This document shows positions 33,882 to 57,848 of a stretch of 64,000 bases of DNA, one piece after another. The stretch is taken from NCBI GenBank assembly GCA_001304015.1, contig LJUY01000002.1, forward strand, positions 62,001 through 126,000. The letters run 5' to 3'. The notes beneath the pieces are model-generated. The model saw only the letters and a program-made list of their open reading frames with translations. It did not search any database and was not told where the DNA came from. How positions within the stretch are numbered: position 1 is the stretch's first letter; every line of letters begins with the position of its first letter. The translations under genes were made by a program, and so were the position numbers. Source of the DNA: a candidate division Zixibacteria bacterium SM23_81 (lineage in GTDB: Bacteria; SM23-81).

Positions 33882-35525
33882 TTATCCCCACCACACCTCG
33901 TCGTTCTGGCCAACGACGAAAACCTGATTACGCCCACTCTTCTTGGCCGTATAAAGGGCCTCATCGGCCCTCTCCACCAGATCTTTTCCGTTATCAGCGT
34001 CCTCCGGGTAACTGGCCACCCCTATACTGACCGTCAGCCGCTTCTGCGGTTGGAGCTGTCCGTGAGGAAATTTGTAATCCCCAATCTTCTTGCGGATTCT
34101 CTCGGCCACCTTCCAGGCACCCATTTTGTTTGTCTCAGTGAGGATGATGGCGAATTCCTCGCCACCATAACGAGCCAGGATATCGATGTCCCTGATCTCG
34201 GCCTTAATCAGCTGTGCTATGATTCTGAGGATTTTATCTCCCGTGGGATGTCCACACACATCGTTGTAATGTTTGAAGAAGTCGATATCCAACATGATCA
34301 CCGAGAAGCTCCGATGGTGACGATGGCTACGGCTCTCCTCGTCCCTCAAGCGTTCCTGAAAATGCCTGTGATTGAAGAGTTTCGTAAGACCGTCGGTGAT
34401 GGAGTGCTGCTTGGCATTCTGGTAAGCCCGGGCATTTCCCAGGGCCATGGAGACCTGATCGCTCAGAGCACCCCAGAACAGCTCATCGTAGTCGCCAAAG
34501 GCGGTATCCCCTTGGCTCATCAACATCAACAGGCCGATGAGTTTTTCCTGCACCTTTAAGGGAAGCAAAGCAGTAAATCCACCCTTTTGGGAGGATTCCT
34601 CTTCCTTGTGATGGAGACTAAGCTCTGCTGAGATCACCGGCCTGCCCTTTTCGACCACTTGTTGAATCAAACCTTCCGCTTCGGCTAGCTTGGCCAGCAG
34701 AACGCGAGAATCGCCTTTGGGCGCTCCTTCAGTCCACTCCTCTCGCTCCTCATCCCACAGCAATATGGCGCATTGTCGACATTTCAGACGTGCTTTAACG
34801 ACCTCCACTATTCTTTCCAGCAAAAGATCAAATTCCAGGAAGCTCCCGATTTCCCTGCTGATTTCGCAGAGGATATTCAAGCCTTTGGCCGGAACCCTGG
34901 GTGGTTCGGGAAGCGTCAGGTTCTGGAGAGCCTGAGTCGCCTGGATGGCGAATAATTCCAAGAGAGCGATGGTCTGAGCATCTGGTCCTTGCCCATCGAG
35001 AGGTCCATCTACGGACATCACACCCAGCAGTTTTCCGTCGGTCCGAACCAGAGGAGTAAAAAGAGTGCCATCGGGATACCTGCTGGTTCGATGAGCGGAT
35101 TGCCCCTCCATTTTCAGATCAGATTTCGGGGCAGTGCCCTGCTGGTTGTTGATGAAATAGGAGTTGCTGATTTTATGCTCATCCTGAAAAAACTGGAAAA
35201 AGTAATCCTCCGGCACCCGCTGCCCTTTAAACCTCTGAAATACCTCCTGGCTCAATCCCGCCTGGGCTTTTCGTATAAACATGTGGTGATCCCTGTCATA
35301 TAGGCTGATGAGCACTCGCCGAAATCCCAGGCTGCGTTGCACCGCTTGGGCCACTTGATCCAGAAGATCTTCCAGTTCGAGCTGCCGACCAAGGACCTGG
35401 CTGAGATTTTGGATCTCACTCAGCCAGCGAGTCTGTGCCTCCAGTTGGGCATTTTTTCTCTCTAGCTCCTGACGAAGCGTATCCAAAGATCGAAAGTCCA
35501 CCTTTTCTCCTTCCCGCTGGGCCAT
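33882..35525 (-). CDS. Diguanylate cyclase with two GAF domains (GGDEF)
   Basis: About 547 residues. A short coiled coil (about 10-35) is followed by two GAF sensor domains (about 40-190 and 225-370) and a C-terminal GGDEF domain. The active site reads YGGEEF, and an RxxD inhibitory site (RDID) stands five residues before it, so product feedback is likely. FFKHYNDVCGHPTGD is the GTP/metal loop. No membrane segment is seen, so the sensing is cytosolic. The frame is open to 35666, but a promoter lies inside that extension, so I start at ATG 35525, 12 bases after AGGAGG. It makes c-di-GMP; an HD-GYP phosphodiesterase and c-di-GMP riboswitch are at 56.4-57.3 kb. Confidence 0.9.
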   Translation of the reverse strand: MAQREGEKVDFRSLDTLRQELERKNAQLEAQTRWLSEIQNLSQVLGRQLELEDLLDQVAQAVQRSLGFRRVLISLYDRDHHMFIRKAQAGLSQEVFQRFKGQRVPEDYFFQFFQDEHKISNSYFINNQQGTAPKSDLKMEGQSAHRTSRYPDGTLFTPLVRTDGKLLGVMSVDGPLDGQGPDAQTIALLELFAIQATQALQNLTLPEPPRVPAKGLNILCEISREIGSFLEFDLLLERIVEVVKARLKCRQCAILLWDEEREEWTEGAPKGDSRVLLAKLAEAEGLIQQVVEKGRPVISAELSLHHKEEESSQKGGFTALLPLKVQEKLIGLLMLMSQGDTAFGDYDELFWGALSDQVSMALGNARAYQNAKQHSITDGLTKLFNHRHFQERLRDEESRSHRHHRSFSVIMLDIDFFKHYNDVCGHPTGDKILRIIAQLIKAEIRDIDILARYGGEEFAIILTETNKMGAWKVAERIRKKIGDYKFPHGQLQPQKRLTVSIGVASYPEDADNGKDLVERADEALYTAKKSGRNQVFVVGQNDEVWWG

Positions 35526-53509: not shown

Positions 53510-55432
53510 TTACCGCACCACAACCATCTTCCTGGTTTTCACGAAATCCCCGGCCTTAAGCTGGTAGAGATAGATCCCGGCAGACACCCGCTCTCCCCGA
53601 GCGTTGGTGCAATCCCACCCCCCCATCTTCCAGTCAGGGCCATCATGATGTCCCGGCTCTAGATATCCCTCGTACTTGTGCACTACTTGACCGTCTATGG
53701 TGAAAATCCGGAAGGAGACTTGTCCCCCCGCGGCTACGTAAAAGGGAATGACCGTACGATCACCGACCACTGGATTGGGATAATTCTGGCCCAACCAGGT
53801 GACCGTCTGACTGGGCTCGGTGAGGCTGGAATCCGGCACTCCTCGATAGGCATATTGCAGGCCGCTCCCCGAGAGGGCAAAAGGGGTGATCACCAAGGTC
53901 ACCTCTCCATATTGGCTCCAGTTGAGCATCTGACCTGATCCACGCCCCAAGACATTCAAGGAGATCCCGACGATCTCATGAGGAGGTCCGATGCCCAACA
54001 GGGCGGCCTTCCATGAAACCTGTGGTTGACCTTCCAGCTCTATTCTCAGGCCACCCGGGGTGTCCTGGGTCACAAAGCGAGCATAGCTGGCGCCCAAAGG
54101 CTCAGGAGGATAGGAGACAGAGTCCACCACCACGGGATAATTCGAGTGCACATTGTCGGTATAAACGGCGACCTGAGGATATCGATTCCCCTCGGGATAA
54201 AAAAGGTTCGTATCCGCGCGAGAGCCGGTGAAATAGTTCCAAATGGCAAATTCGTTATGCGCTGAGGCCAGAGTCATACCGCGACTGTCTAGAACCTCCC
54301 CCATGGCGTCCAGTGCCGTCTTTTGAACGCACCCCTCCCAGATTTCTCTCATTATGCGTCGGCCAAATCTTTTGGCCAAATAGTGGGCCCACACGCAACT
54401 GCTGTACTCGTGGATCCCGTCAAATGTGACCAGTGAAAGCTCAGGACAGTTGAAAAGGGCGGAAGATCCAGAAGCGAGATAATAATAATAGTCGTTAACC
54501 GCATCGTAGACCACGTCCTCCATCCAGGTGGAGGAGATTTCCATGAAAAAGCGCTCCTCCCGGGTGTCGTAAGCGAACTGAACGGCGTGAAAGAACTCAT
54601 GGGCCGCGGTGACCATCAATCCGGCGTTCCCAGGAGTCGGATAAATGGAGCTGGAGTAATCGTTGTCCACCACCAAGTAGCTCGTGGTGGCCAGCGGGTG
54701 ACCCTCAGGAACGACATACTCGCTCTGGGTATATCCGTAAACCCAGTGGTTGTCAAGGTCTTCAACATAGACGTCGTATCGGGAATCCCCTCCATAGTCC
54801 TCATCCCCATACCAGGGCCCGTCAGCGGGAGGCTGCCTGTAGCCTAGAGAATCCACCTCCACCTCCCATACATGGTCGAAGACCTGGGCACAGAGATGGA
54901 TCCAGTCGGGGATTGTGTCGCCGTGGGTATATACGGGTACTGGACTGTCGCGGGTGGAAGTGACGTACCAGATGCGGAAGTGACCGCCCGGGCTATCGTA
55001 GTAGACCGCCGGGACGAGATAGGAATGGCCGTAAGGAAAGGGTTCCTGACCAGGTTCGGTGGGCCGCAGCAAGTAAGGAGCGAGCATCGCCTTTGCCCGC
55101 GGACTTAAACTATCCCAGTGAGTTCGAACCTCCAGTAACAATGGGGTCAGCGATTTGAGGAATCTTCGGGGTTGGCTTTGAAATCTGGGGGGAAGCCGTT
55201 GCGGATCTAAAACCGCCCAGACCCGATACACCAGGGAGGTTTCAGCGTCCAGTTCCCCCCGTAGATGGGCCTGGGTAATCACATCAAGGGAGCTCAGCTC
55301 TCCGACATTGGCTTCTGGCTCCATGGCAGAGGTATAAAAAAGGGCTAGAACAAAAGCAAACACAAAGAAATTCCGCAACCTCTTCCGAGCCTCTATCTTT
55401 TGGAGGTATCTTACGATCCCGACTGTAGCCAA
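53510..55432 (-). CDS. Secreted MXAN_6640-like metalloprotease with FlgD-type C-terminal sorting domain
   Basis: About 640 residues. A hydrophobic signal lies at 19-36. The catalytic centre is HEFFH (278-282), with a candidate third ligand Glu in FFMEISSTWMED (298-305), the gluzincin arrangement of MXAN_6640-family proteases. The last 90 residues form a FlgD Ig-like/type IX-style sorting module with FRIFTIDGQVV, WDCTNARGERVSAGIYLYQL and a basic KTRKMVVVR end. This suggests secretion to the surface or medium by a T9SS-like route in FCB-group bacteria. The start is TTG at 55432 (overlapping the PHP gene by 22 bases) or TTG at 55378, nearer the signal peptide. A strong terminator follows. Confidence 0.85.
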   Translation of the reverse strand: MATVGIVRYLQKIEARKRLRNFFVFAFVLALFYTSAMEPEANVGELSSLDVITQAHLRGELDAETSLVYRVWAVLDPQRLPPRFQSQPRRFLKSLTPLLLEVRTHWDSLSPRAKAMLAPYLLRPTEPGQEPFPYGHSYLVPAVYYDSPGGHFRIWYVTSTRDSPVPVYTHGDTIPDWIHLCAQVFDHVWEVEVDSLGYRQPPADGPWYGDEDYGGDSRYDVYVEDLDNHWVYGYTQSEYVVPEGHPLATTSYLVVDNDYSSSIYPTPGNAGLMVTAAHEFFHAVQFAYDTREERFFMEISSTWMEDVVYDAVNDYYYYLASGSSALFNCPELSLVTFDGIHEYSSCVWAHYLAKRFGRRIMREIWEGCVQKTALDAMGEVLDSRGMTLASAHNEFAIWNYFTGSRADTNLFYPEGNRYPQVAVYTDNVHSNYPVVVDSVSYPPEPLGASYARFVTQDTPGGLRIELEGQPQVSWKAALLGIGPPHEIVGISLNVLGRGSGQMLNWSQYGEVTLVITPFALSGSGLQYAYRGVPDSSLTEPSQTVTWLGQNYPNPVVGDRTVIPFYVAAGGQVSFRIFTIDGQVVHKYEGYLEPGHHDGPDWKMGGWDCTNARGERVSAGIYLYQLKAGDFVKTRKMVVVR

Positions 55433-56253
55433 CGTTTACGCTTTTTCAAAGCAGTGACGCAGTGATATGGCACGGACAGTTTGCCCAGCATGGTCTCTTG
55501 ACCAAATCGGGTTCCATGGCAATCTGAGCCACCGGTGACCAAGAGACCATAACAATTGGCCAGACGAAGGTAATGGCGCCTGGCCTCAGTATCGTGCCTG
55601 ACATGATAGGCCTCCAGCCCATCCAGCCCTAATTCCACCAGAAACGGAATGAGATCGTCCCTTCCCAGGACTGCTGGATGCGCCAGCACGGCCACTCCCT
55701 GAACGGAATGGATGAGCTCGATGGCCTCCTGAGCCGTCAAACCTATCTTAGGAACGTATGCAGGAGCGTGATAGCCCAAATAGCGAGCGAAGGCCTCACG
55801 ATAGCTACCCACATATTCCTCGCGAACCAGGGCATCGGCCACGTGAGGGCGCCCCAACGGAGCCTCCCCGGCAATGGCCATCACCGTTTCCATCTGGAGA
55901 TCGACCCCCAGTTGGTTGAGCTTATCGACGATCTTCTGCCCTCGATGATATCTGGCCCGCTGAAAACGCCGGATTTCTCTCAGCAGAGTTGGCGCGCGGT
56001 AATTCACCAGATACCCCAGCAGATGGACATCTGCACCGTCGTCGTCGACGCTCAGCTCCACCCCAGGGATAATCTCCAGCCCACTGCCCCTCGCAGCGCA
56101 AATGGCGTGATCTATAGCCGCAACGCTATCGTGGTCGGTGATGGCAATGGCCAACAATCCCCGATCGAGAGCTCGCTGAACGACCTCGTGAGCACTCTGT
56201 TGCCCATCCGATGCCGCGGTATGAATGTGAAGGTCAACTCTCTTTTTAGTCAT
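55411..56253 (-). CDS. PHP-domain phosphoesterase (YciV/RNase AM-like)
   Basis: A 280-residue PHP protein. Metal ligands: VDLHIHTAASDGQQ, AITDHDS, IIPGVELS, VAVLAHP and GGSDCHG, all intact. It matches the YciV/TrpH group that hydrolyses 3',5'-nucleoside bisphosphates or trims RNA 5' ends. Cytosolic. It overlaps the metalloprotease gene start, though functional connection is unlikely. Confidence 0.9.
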   Translation of the reverse strand: MTKKRVDLHIHTAASDGQQSAHEVVQRALDRGLLAIAITDHDSVAAIDHAICAARGSGLEIIPGVELSVDDDGADVHLLGYLVNYRAPTLLREIRRFQRARYHRGQKIVDKLNQLGVDLQMETVMAIAGEAPLGRPHVADALVREEYVGSYREAFARYLGYHAPAYVPKIGLTAQEAIELIHSVQGVAVLAHPAVLGRDDLIPFLVELGLDGLEAYHVRHDTEARRHYLRLANCYGLLVTGGSDCHGTRFGQETMLGKLSVPYHCVTALKKRKRWLQSGS

Positions 56254-56364: not shown

Positions 56365-57018
56365 TCAAACAACCTCCTGGGTGCCGACCATAATTTTGCC
56401 CTTCGCAAAAGCCGCACAAAAGGCCTCCACTATTTGAGGATCGAACTGGGTCCCAGCTTCCTCTCGCAACTCTTGGAGGGCCTCCTGGGGCGATAAGGCC
56501 TTTCGATACGGCCGATTTGAGGACATCGCATCGAAAGAATCGGCCACCGTAAGAATTCGAGCCTCCAGGGGAATTTGGTCTCCCCCAAGACCATCTGGAT
56601 AGCCTCTGGCATCATAACGCTCGTGATGGTGCCGGATGACGGGAATGATATCGGCCAGCTGTTCTACCGACTCCAGAATACGAACACCCAGGAGGGGATG
56701 AAGTCTGATGGCCGCCATCTCCAACTCGCCTAAGGGTGCTGGCTTGCTTAAAATGAATGCCTCTACGCCGATCTTGCCTATGTCGTGCAGCAGAGCGGCA
56801 ATCTCCAGGCGTTCCAACCTGTGGGGCGAAAATCCCAGCTCGACACCAATGGCCAAGGCGTACTGACACACTTTCACGGAGTGACCTCGGGTATGAGGAT
56901 CCCGAGCGTCAATGGTTTGAGAAAGAGCATGCAGGAGACCTATGAATTGCTCCTGTAGATCTTTCACTTTCTTTTGGAGCCGGGCCTGATTGTTCTCAGC
57001 TCGCGTATGGCTCTTCAT
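56365..57018 (-). CDS. HD-GYP domain c-di-GMP phosphodiesterase
   Basis: A 217-residue stand-alone HD-GYP protein. An N-terminal coiled coil (5-40) is followed by HDIGKIG (HD pair), RHHHERYDARGYPDG (HHE and GYP motifs) and VADSFDAMSSNRPYR, so the metal site and c-di-GMP motif are complete. No receiver or membrane domain. It hydrolyses c-di-GMP to pGpG/GMP. GGGGG lies four bases before the ATG. Its leader carries a c-di-GMP-I riboswitch with overlapping terminator, so its expression should rise with c-di-GMP, giving feedback control. Confidence 0.93.
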   Translation of the reverse strand: MKSHTRAENNQARLQKKVKDLQEQFIGLLHALSQTIDARDPHTRGHSVKVCQYALAIGVELGFSPHRLERLEIAALLHDIGKIGVEAFILSKPAPLGELEMAAIRLHPLLGVRILESVEQLADIIPVIRHHHERYDARGYPDGLGGDQIPLEARILTVADSFDAMSSNRPYRKALSPQEALQELREEAGTQFDPQIVEAFCAAFAKGKIMVGTQEVV

Positions 57019-57102: not shown

Positions 57103-57150
57103 AAAAGCCGGGTTGCCATAACTACCCCTTACAGACTTCGGCAACCCGGC
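57103..57150 (-). terminator. Riboswitch-controlled terminator upstream of the HD-GYP gene
   Basis: Minus strand: GCCGGGTTGCC (57150-57140), 22-base loop, perfect complement GGCAACCCGGC (57117-57107), then TTTT. The 5' arm is the 3' strand of the c-di-GMP aptamer, so folding of aptamer and terminator are mutually exclusive. Confidence 0.85.
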
Positions 57151-57287
57151 CGTCATATCAAGTCCAAAGCAGAAGCTTGAGCGGAGCCCAGATTTCCTGA
57201 GCCGGAAGGGAACTCCTGAATTGGACTTGACTTAGACCCGTAGCTTTGTGCACTACCCTTTCAGGTAGATTACCCTGATCGGTCTGT
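57131..57287 (-). ncRNA. Cyclic di-GMP-I (GEMM-I) riboswitch
   Basis: Minus strand. An outer helix ACAGAC (57287-57282) / GTCTGT (57136-57131) encloses CAGGGTAATC, a CTACC-TGAAAG-GGTAG hairpin with GAAA tetraloop, GCACAAAGCTACGGGTCTAAG, a long variable hairpin (GTCAAGTCC ... GGACTTGA), and the closing GCCGGGTTGCCGAAG. These are the conserved GEMM-I blocks in order. The position equivalent to G20 is G, favouring c-di-GMP over cGAMP. Confidence 0.9.
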
Positions 57288-57309: not shown

Positions 57310-57339
57310 ATTATGACGAATCCCTCATCTGGTATGCAA
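57310..57339 (-). promoter_or_regulatory. Possible sigma-70 promoter for the riboswitch-HD-GYP transcript
   Basis: Minus strand: TTGCAT (57339-57334), 18-base spacer, CATAAT (57315-57310), placing the transcription start about 15 bases before the aptamer. Confidence 0.55.
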
Positions 57340-57848
57340 CTAATATGCAAAAAATGTGCCTACTTAGACCTCTTCCGCAACTTAGTTGTCTAAAAATGAT
57401 GCCTTTTCAACCTTTCTCTATAAAACGTCCTGATAACCAATTGTTTAATAAGAATTTGTACATTTAACTTGATCCCCCATCTGAGATGATGATGTGCGTC
57501 ATACATGAAAGCTGAACCGCTCCCAATACGCCTCATTGGGTAAGGTTTTCTTTCCATCTGACGGTATCCGCTCGAATCCACTGGGATCACCTGTTTCATC
57601 AACATGGCCTTCATAGCCTTTGCCTCTGTTAATCGTCCGCAACTGTTTTCTATCTGGCCAAAGGCAAACCCTGCATGAAGCATGCCTTGCACTCGCAAAC
57701 GGCAGGCCAAACGTGTTGAGATTATTTAAGTACTTTCCTGAAATTAGGTTATCTTCACGGCCTGGGGGGAAAAACAGCTGCCTGAAAACCTGGGCTCAGT
57801 TTGCAATTCAATTTTGCAGATTACAGCTTTTCCAAATAAACTCTTGAT
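57340..57848 (-). other. Intergenic region without recognised gene
   Basis: About 510 bases between the ftcD-cluster terminator and the riboswitch promoter. A minus-strand frame at 57390-57710 has no ribosome site or motif. I see no further structured RNA. Confidence 0.4.

Follow-up and report, generated by a model that had tools for sequence, protein, structure and literature searches.

On the minus strand of the window (the whole 64-kb stretch of DNA that was analysed), a c-di-GMP-I riboswitch aptamer lies 118 nt upstream of the start of a gene for a stand-alone HD-GYP phosphodiesterase domain (56365–57018, 217 aa; PF13487 (HD_5), E 5.9e-40), which is followed by a PHP phosphoesterase gene (55411–56253, minus strand, 280 aa; PF02811). 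Based on cmscan, the aptamer matches the complete RF01051 model (positions 1–87 of 87) at 57284–57137 with 61.4 bits (E 1.4e-9), above the gathering score of 35 bits, and is the sole above-threshold Rfam match in the window. An independent covariance model (R1), which we built on a set of 18 c-di-GMP-I aptamers excluding this one, gives it 43.5 bits (E 4.1e-9). The genome search found one copy of this aptamer in total in the window genome (G000). An earlier sequence-only reading had described all GEMM-I blocks on the minus strand, within 57103–57287, and had proposed an Infernal search with RF01051 as a check. That search returned the full-length match given above, and the coordinates also fit: P1 begins at 57287 and the terminator TTTT ends at 57103.

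By alignment, G20, A47 and C92, which are key ligand positions (PMC11218506, PMC9049102), fall at 57273, 57247 and 57141. The pocket pairs U21–A45 and G20–C46 correspond to 57272–57249 and 57273–57248. An A at position 20 is the mark of the cGAMP (GEMM-Ib) type. In the window, position 20 reads G, by which cGAMP specificity of the aptamer was ruled out; as judged from the aligned residues, the pocket is of c-di-GMP type and not of cGAMP type.

The complete aptamer (57131–57287), delimited from the sequence, its coordinates and a constrained fold, has a P1 longer than that of the Rfam model, in which ACAGACCG (57287–57280) pairs with CG-aa-GTCTGT (57140–57131). According to the sequence, the RF01051 alignment and the fold, P2 is a hairpin with a GNRA tetraloop (CTACCT-GAAA-GGGTAG, 57253–57268). 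The P3 arm (57152–57237), placed by the same alignment and by growing-chain folds, includes the tetraloop receptor (GTCTAAG/UAUGAC) and a structured insert of ~64 nt, which folds as an extended arm and was absent from the sequence-only reading.

The PHP gene begins 111 nt past the HD-GYP gene, with no terminator found between them by a simple scan allowing loops of 3–8 nt, and it stands in the same order in G001, a genome of a sister genus in the same family. It is probably an operon partner of the HD-GYP gene. The protein resembles RNase RNM and 3′,5′-nucleoside bisphosphate phosphatases, yet scores below their naming cut-offs. It lies directly behind HD-GYP in two genera and might act on the pGpG product; a role as the sole pGpG hydrolase is unneeded, as the genome also encodes a DHH protein that, at 326 aa, is roughly as large as NrnA.

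Among the GGDEF domains encoded by the window genome, three have an undamaged GGEEF/GGDEF motif; there are also four HD-GYP domains and one PilZ domain. One of the three lies in the window itself (33924–34400, minus strand), ~23 kb from the HD-GYP gene; its motif is GGEEF, and it also has an RxxD I-site. A putative metalloprotease of the MXAN_6640 family (53510–55432, minus strand) carries a T9SS type A sorting domain, which suggests type IX secretion.

Terminator, predicted switch direction and probable promoter

The strand GCCGGGTTGCC (57150–57140) comprises the P3 3′ side together with C92 and a single P1 base, and its exact 11-nt complement, GGCAACCCGGC, is found at 57117–57107. The two would form an 11-bp terminator stem, so that the 3′ side of the aptamer also serves as the 5′ arm of the terminator. 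After GGCAACCCGGC comes TTTTCTACG (57106–57098); as read from the sequence, the U-tract consists of four T only (57103–57106), followed by CTACG, a point missing from the sequence-only reading. When the 118 nt that follow the aptamer were dinucleotide-shuffled, an 11-nt complement of GCCGGGTTGCC appeared in 0 of 20,000 cases, compared with 0.015% for 10 nt and 0.055% for 9 nt. The simple terminator scan missed this hairpin because of its 3–8-nt loop limit. These data uphold the claim that an 11-bp terminator with TTTT uses the aptamer 3′ strand as its 5′ arm.

A terminator arm shared with the aptamer is the anatomy of a transcriptional ON riboswitch and, as far as sequence can indicate, points to ligand-ON polarity for the window leader. 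The same design has been published as ligand-ON for Bc3–Bc5 of Bacillus thuringiensis (PMC4759541), and the ON polarity claimed earlier agrees with it. The free leader folds at −81.5 kcal/mol with the terminator vs −65.6 kcal/mol with P1, P2 and the base of P3 enforced, and in growing-chain folds the terminator displaces the aptamer as its 3′ arm emerges. Since the free leader prefers the terminator by a gap of 16 kcal/mol, the ligand would have to act fast, during transcription. Translation control via a masked ribosome site was ruled out, the hairpin ending ~88 nt ahead of the start codon.

A sigma-54-type promoter, AGGCACATTTTTTGCA (GG-N10-GC, 57346–57361, minus strand), with an estimated start site near 57335, probably drives the leader, as suggested by its motif and its conservation in G001. 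The GG-N10-GC boxes are present, with A and not T as the first base, and RpoN was found in G000, G001 and a third genome, G002. The pattern GGCACN5TTGCW occurs once in the window, where 0.32 occurrences would be expected in 64 kb, and the chance of a match in the 100 nt ahead of the aptamer is well under 0.001. In G001, GGCACA-N4-TTGCA-like boxes with the GG-N10-GC spacing are retained, against 36% identity over the rest of the upstream region. Genome-wide, the strict TGGCAC pattern shows only weak enrichment (9 vs 5 in a reversed control), so the case for the promoter rests on position and conservation. A candidate sigma-70 promoter, TTGCAT-N18-CATAAT (57339–57310), has 8 of 12 matches in a stretch unconserved in G001, and the sigma-54 site was preferred.

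Related leaders in other genomes

The orthologous locus of G001 (L116) has the gene order of the window, FTCD_C – leader – HD-GYP – PHP, and its HD-GYP protein is 64–67% identical to the window protein. Its leader (L116 1420–1660, minus strand) is 80% identical to that of the window from P3 to the aptamer end and 44% identical over the P1/P2 half. The terminator 3′ arm with the first T-tract bases is identical at 16 of 18 positions (89%), the terminator loop is unconserved, and the C92 position reads U. A search for Rfam riboswitches gave no match in this leader at E ≤ 10, and R1 gave an incoherent alignment of 8.1 bits with no recognisable aptamer; together these results ruled out a hidden aptamer. 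The extended P3 arm has 29 pairs; 12 vary from one genome to the other, and in 10 of the 12 pairing is preserved (9 one-sided changes and 1 compensatory). From the conserved P3 pairing and terminator, both elements are therefore under selection in both genomes.

Within this pair of genomes, the ligand-binding half is, by the search models, recognisable only in the window genome, and in the closest relative, G001, one half of the sensor seems to be gone. Its leader has either decayed or been remodelled, on a comparison of two genomes. An error in the metagenome-assembled sequence at L116 is possible, but it must then coincide exactly with half of the aptamer. Because the P1/P2 half is lost in the sister genus, the wiring of aptamer to HD-GYP cannot be called a conserved trait of the family. 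A speculative reading, to which we give little weight, is that the G001 leader is a remodelled regulator which lost the P1/P2 half, acquired U at C92 and retained the P3 arm, terminator and sigma-54 promoter, and which may sense something else or be a ligand-free attenuator. If true, it would be a natural snapshot of riboswitch rewiring. The orthologous genes behind an intact aptamer in G000 and a broken one in G001 offer a natural comparison for the loss of riboswitch wiring.

The c-di-GMP-I aptamer occurs in three of the four genomes of the phylum examined (one, one and two copies), above different genes. Both G002 loci, L006 and L018, have the same ON-type shared strand as the window, and their downstream ORFs were judged by eye to be secreted peptidase-like and PqqD-like, respectively. 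The P3 insert of L018 (1573–1220, minus strand) is roughly 220 nt long, and Rfam misplaces its 3′ end: the true 3′ strand lies ~220 nt beyond the Rfam placement, with an ON-type terminator next to it. In G001, an aptamer with a long P3 insert (L011 172–385; 63.5 bits with the RF03167 model) is found above genes that by eye are type IV pilin-like. A strong terminator, ATCTACTTGC-ATCC-GGCAAGTAGAT-T9, stands apart from the aptamer and is in competition with pairing of the aptamer 3′ strand, so that the ligand would switch L011 off; from this arrangement L011 looks like an OFF switch, the opposite of the window type.

As judged by eye, none of the 25 aptamer loci of a 60-genome set precedes an HD-GYP gene, apart from that of the window. 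For 80 HD-GYP relatives, all taken from named genomes, R1 detected no upstream aptamer in the sequence scanned, which extended to at most 3 kb ahead of the domain and covered a few hundred bases in some relatives (e.g., L055 and L061). In an Omnitrophota genome, R1 detected a c-di-GMP-I-like aptamer immediately behind the HD-GYP gene (L063 3683–3803).

Proposed feedback loop and comparison with known systems

We suggest, with a probability of about 0.72, that the leader of the HD-GYP gene contains a transcriptional ON c-di-GMP-I riboswitch and that the enzyme hydrolyses c-di-GMP, making a negative feedback loop. Without ligand, GCCGGGTTGCC would pair with GGCAACCCGGC and transcription would end at TTTT. 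When c-di-GMP is bound during RNA synthesis, GCCGGGTTGCC would be kept in P3 and P1 and the terminator could not form. Consequently, the HD-GYP gene would be transcribed, probably together with the PHP gene, and its product would hydrolyse c-di-GMP, closing the loop. Transcription probably begins at the sigma-54 promoter, and the loop would thus run only when an activator fires. Such feedback would cap or pulse c-di-GMP.

Of the readings considered, this one best fits what the locus holds: the aptamer, the exclusive terminator, the ON polarity, the HD-GYP gene and the c-di-GMP parts of the genome together point to it. It is favoured by the full-length RF01051 match with its c-di-GMP-type pocket, the exact 11-bp overlap, the preference of the free leader for the terminator, the conserved terminator 3′ arm, the retained HD-GYP metal ligands, the three intact GGDEF domains and the ON design reported for Bc3–Bc5. 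Against it stand the four-T U-tract, the 16 kcal/mol gap, the sister locus with no recognisable aptamer and two substitutions in the enzyme, a DA in place of DG and a His in place of the third-metal Glu of PmGH.

These substitutions would suit a leader that binds c-di-GMP and switches transcription ahead of an HD-GYP protein that is inactive or prefers another substrate, e.g., cGAMP, which would give regulation without c-di-GMP feedback. Among its solved relatives, V-cGAP3 (5z7c) and PmGH (4mcw), the best by score is the cGAMP-specific V-cGAP3. However, pairwise alignments with both, read with the metal-ligand assignment of PmGH, show that the protein retains the GYP motif and all of the H, HD, H, HH and D ligands; DG is present as usual in the sister protein, and the RNA pocket is of c-di-GMP type. 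We therefore regard an inactive or redirected enzyme as unlikely. The gene, which the sequence-only reading had correctly named as HD-GYP from its sequence and which retains the binuclear metal ligands, probably encodes an enzyme that destroys c-di-GMP.

The leader may instead be mainly an attenuator, in which the terminator and P3 arm fix the level of read-through and the ligand effect in the cell is small. The conservation of these two elements, and not of the aptamer, in G001 would agree with this, as would the large energy gap and the precedent of Bc1 of B. thuringiensis, which has a terminator, yet is unresponsive to c-di-GMP in vivo (PMC11218506) and so also counts against the feedback loop. 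Yet the window aptamer is complete, with pocket, tetraloop and receptor matching the family well, and disuse would bring decay; we consider this explanation quite improbable. The window leader is long and structured and has a putative promoter of its own, and merRNA of Bdellovibrio (PMC3627812) is a precedent for an RNA that acts as a sponge for c-di-GMP; such a role here is very improbable, since bound aptamer and terminator are mutually exclusive, so that the terminated RNA would be ligand-free, and since, unlike in merRNA, a conserved gene lies 118 nt downstream.

Under the feedback loop preferred here, the riboswitch/HD-GYP pair is, from its sequence features, a sound new example of an already known type of control. 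Newly added here are a probable promoter of the sigma-54 type, a probable partner in the operon and a caution against assuming conserved wiring in the family. One transcript carries both the sensor RNA and the signal-destroying enzyme, a compact case from a little-studied candidate phylum.

The window aptamer resembles RF01051 c-di-GMP-I (GEMM-I) in the full model match, the G20/A47/C92 pocket, the GNRA loop of P2 and its receptor in P3, and differs from the model in the ~64-nt P3 insert and extended P1. Its terminator is built from the C92, P1 and P3 strand, as in Bc3–Bc5 (PMC4759541); unlike that triple, the window riboswitch is single, precedes an HD-GYP gene and has a predicted ligand response. 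The window HD-GYP shares with 4mcw and 5z7c the fold family, by sequence, the binuclear metal ligands and the GYP motif, and differs from them in the missing sensory domain, the His at the third-metal Glu and the DA. GEMM elements have been reviewed as occurring upstream of DGC and PDE genes (PMC3971182), and the window riboswitch likewise precedes a c-di-GMP turnover gene; unlike those elements, it belongs to a candidate phylum (four genomes examined), the sister genus lacks its wiring, and it stands behind a sigma-54-type promoter.
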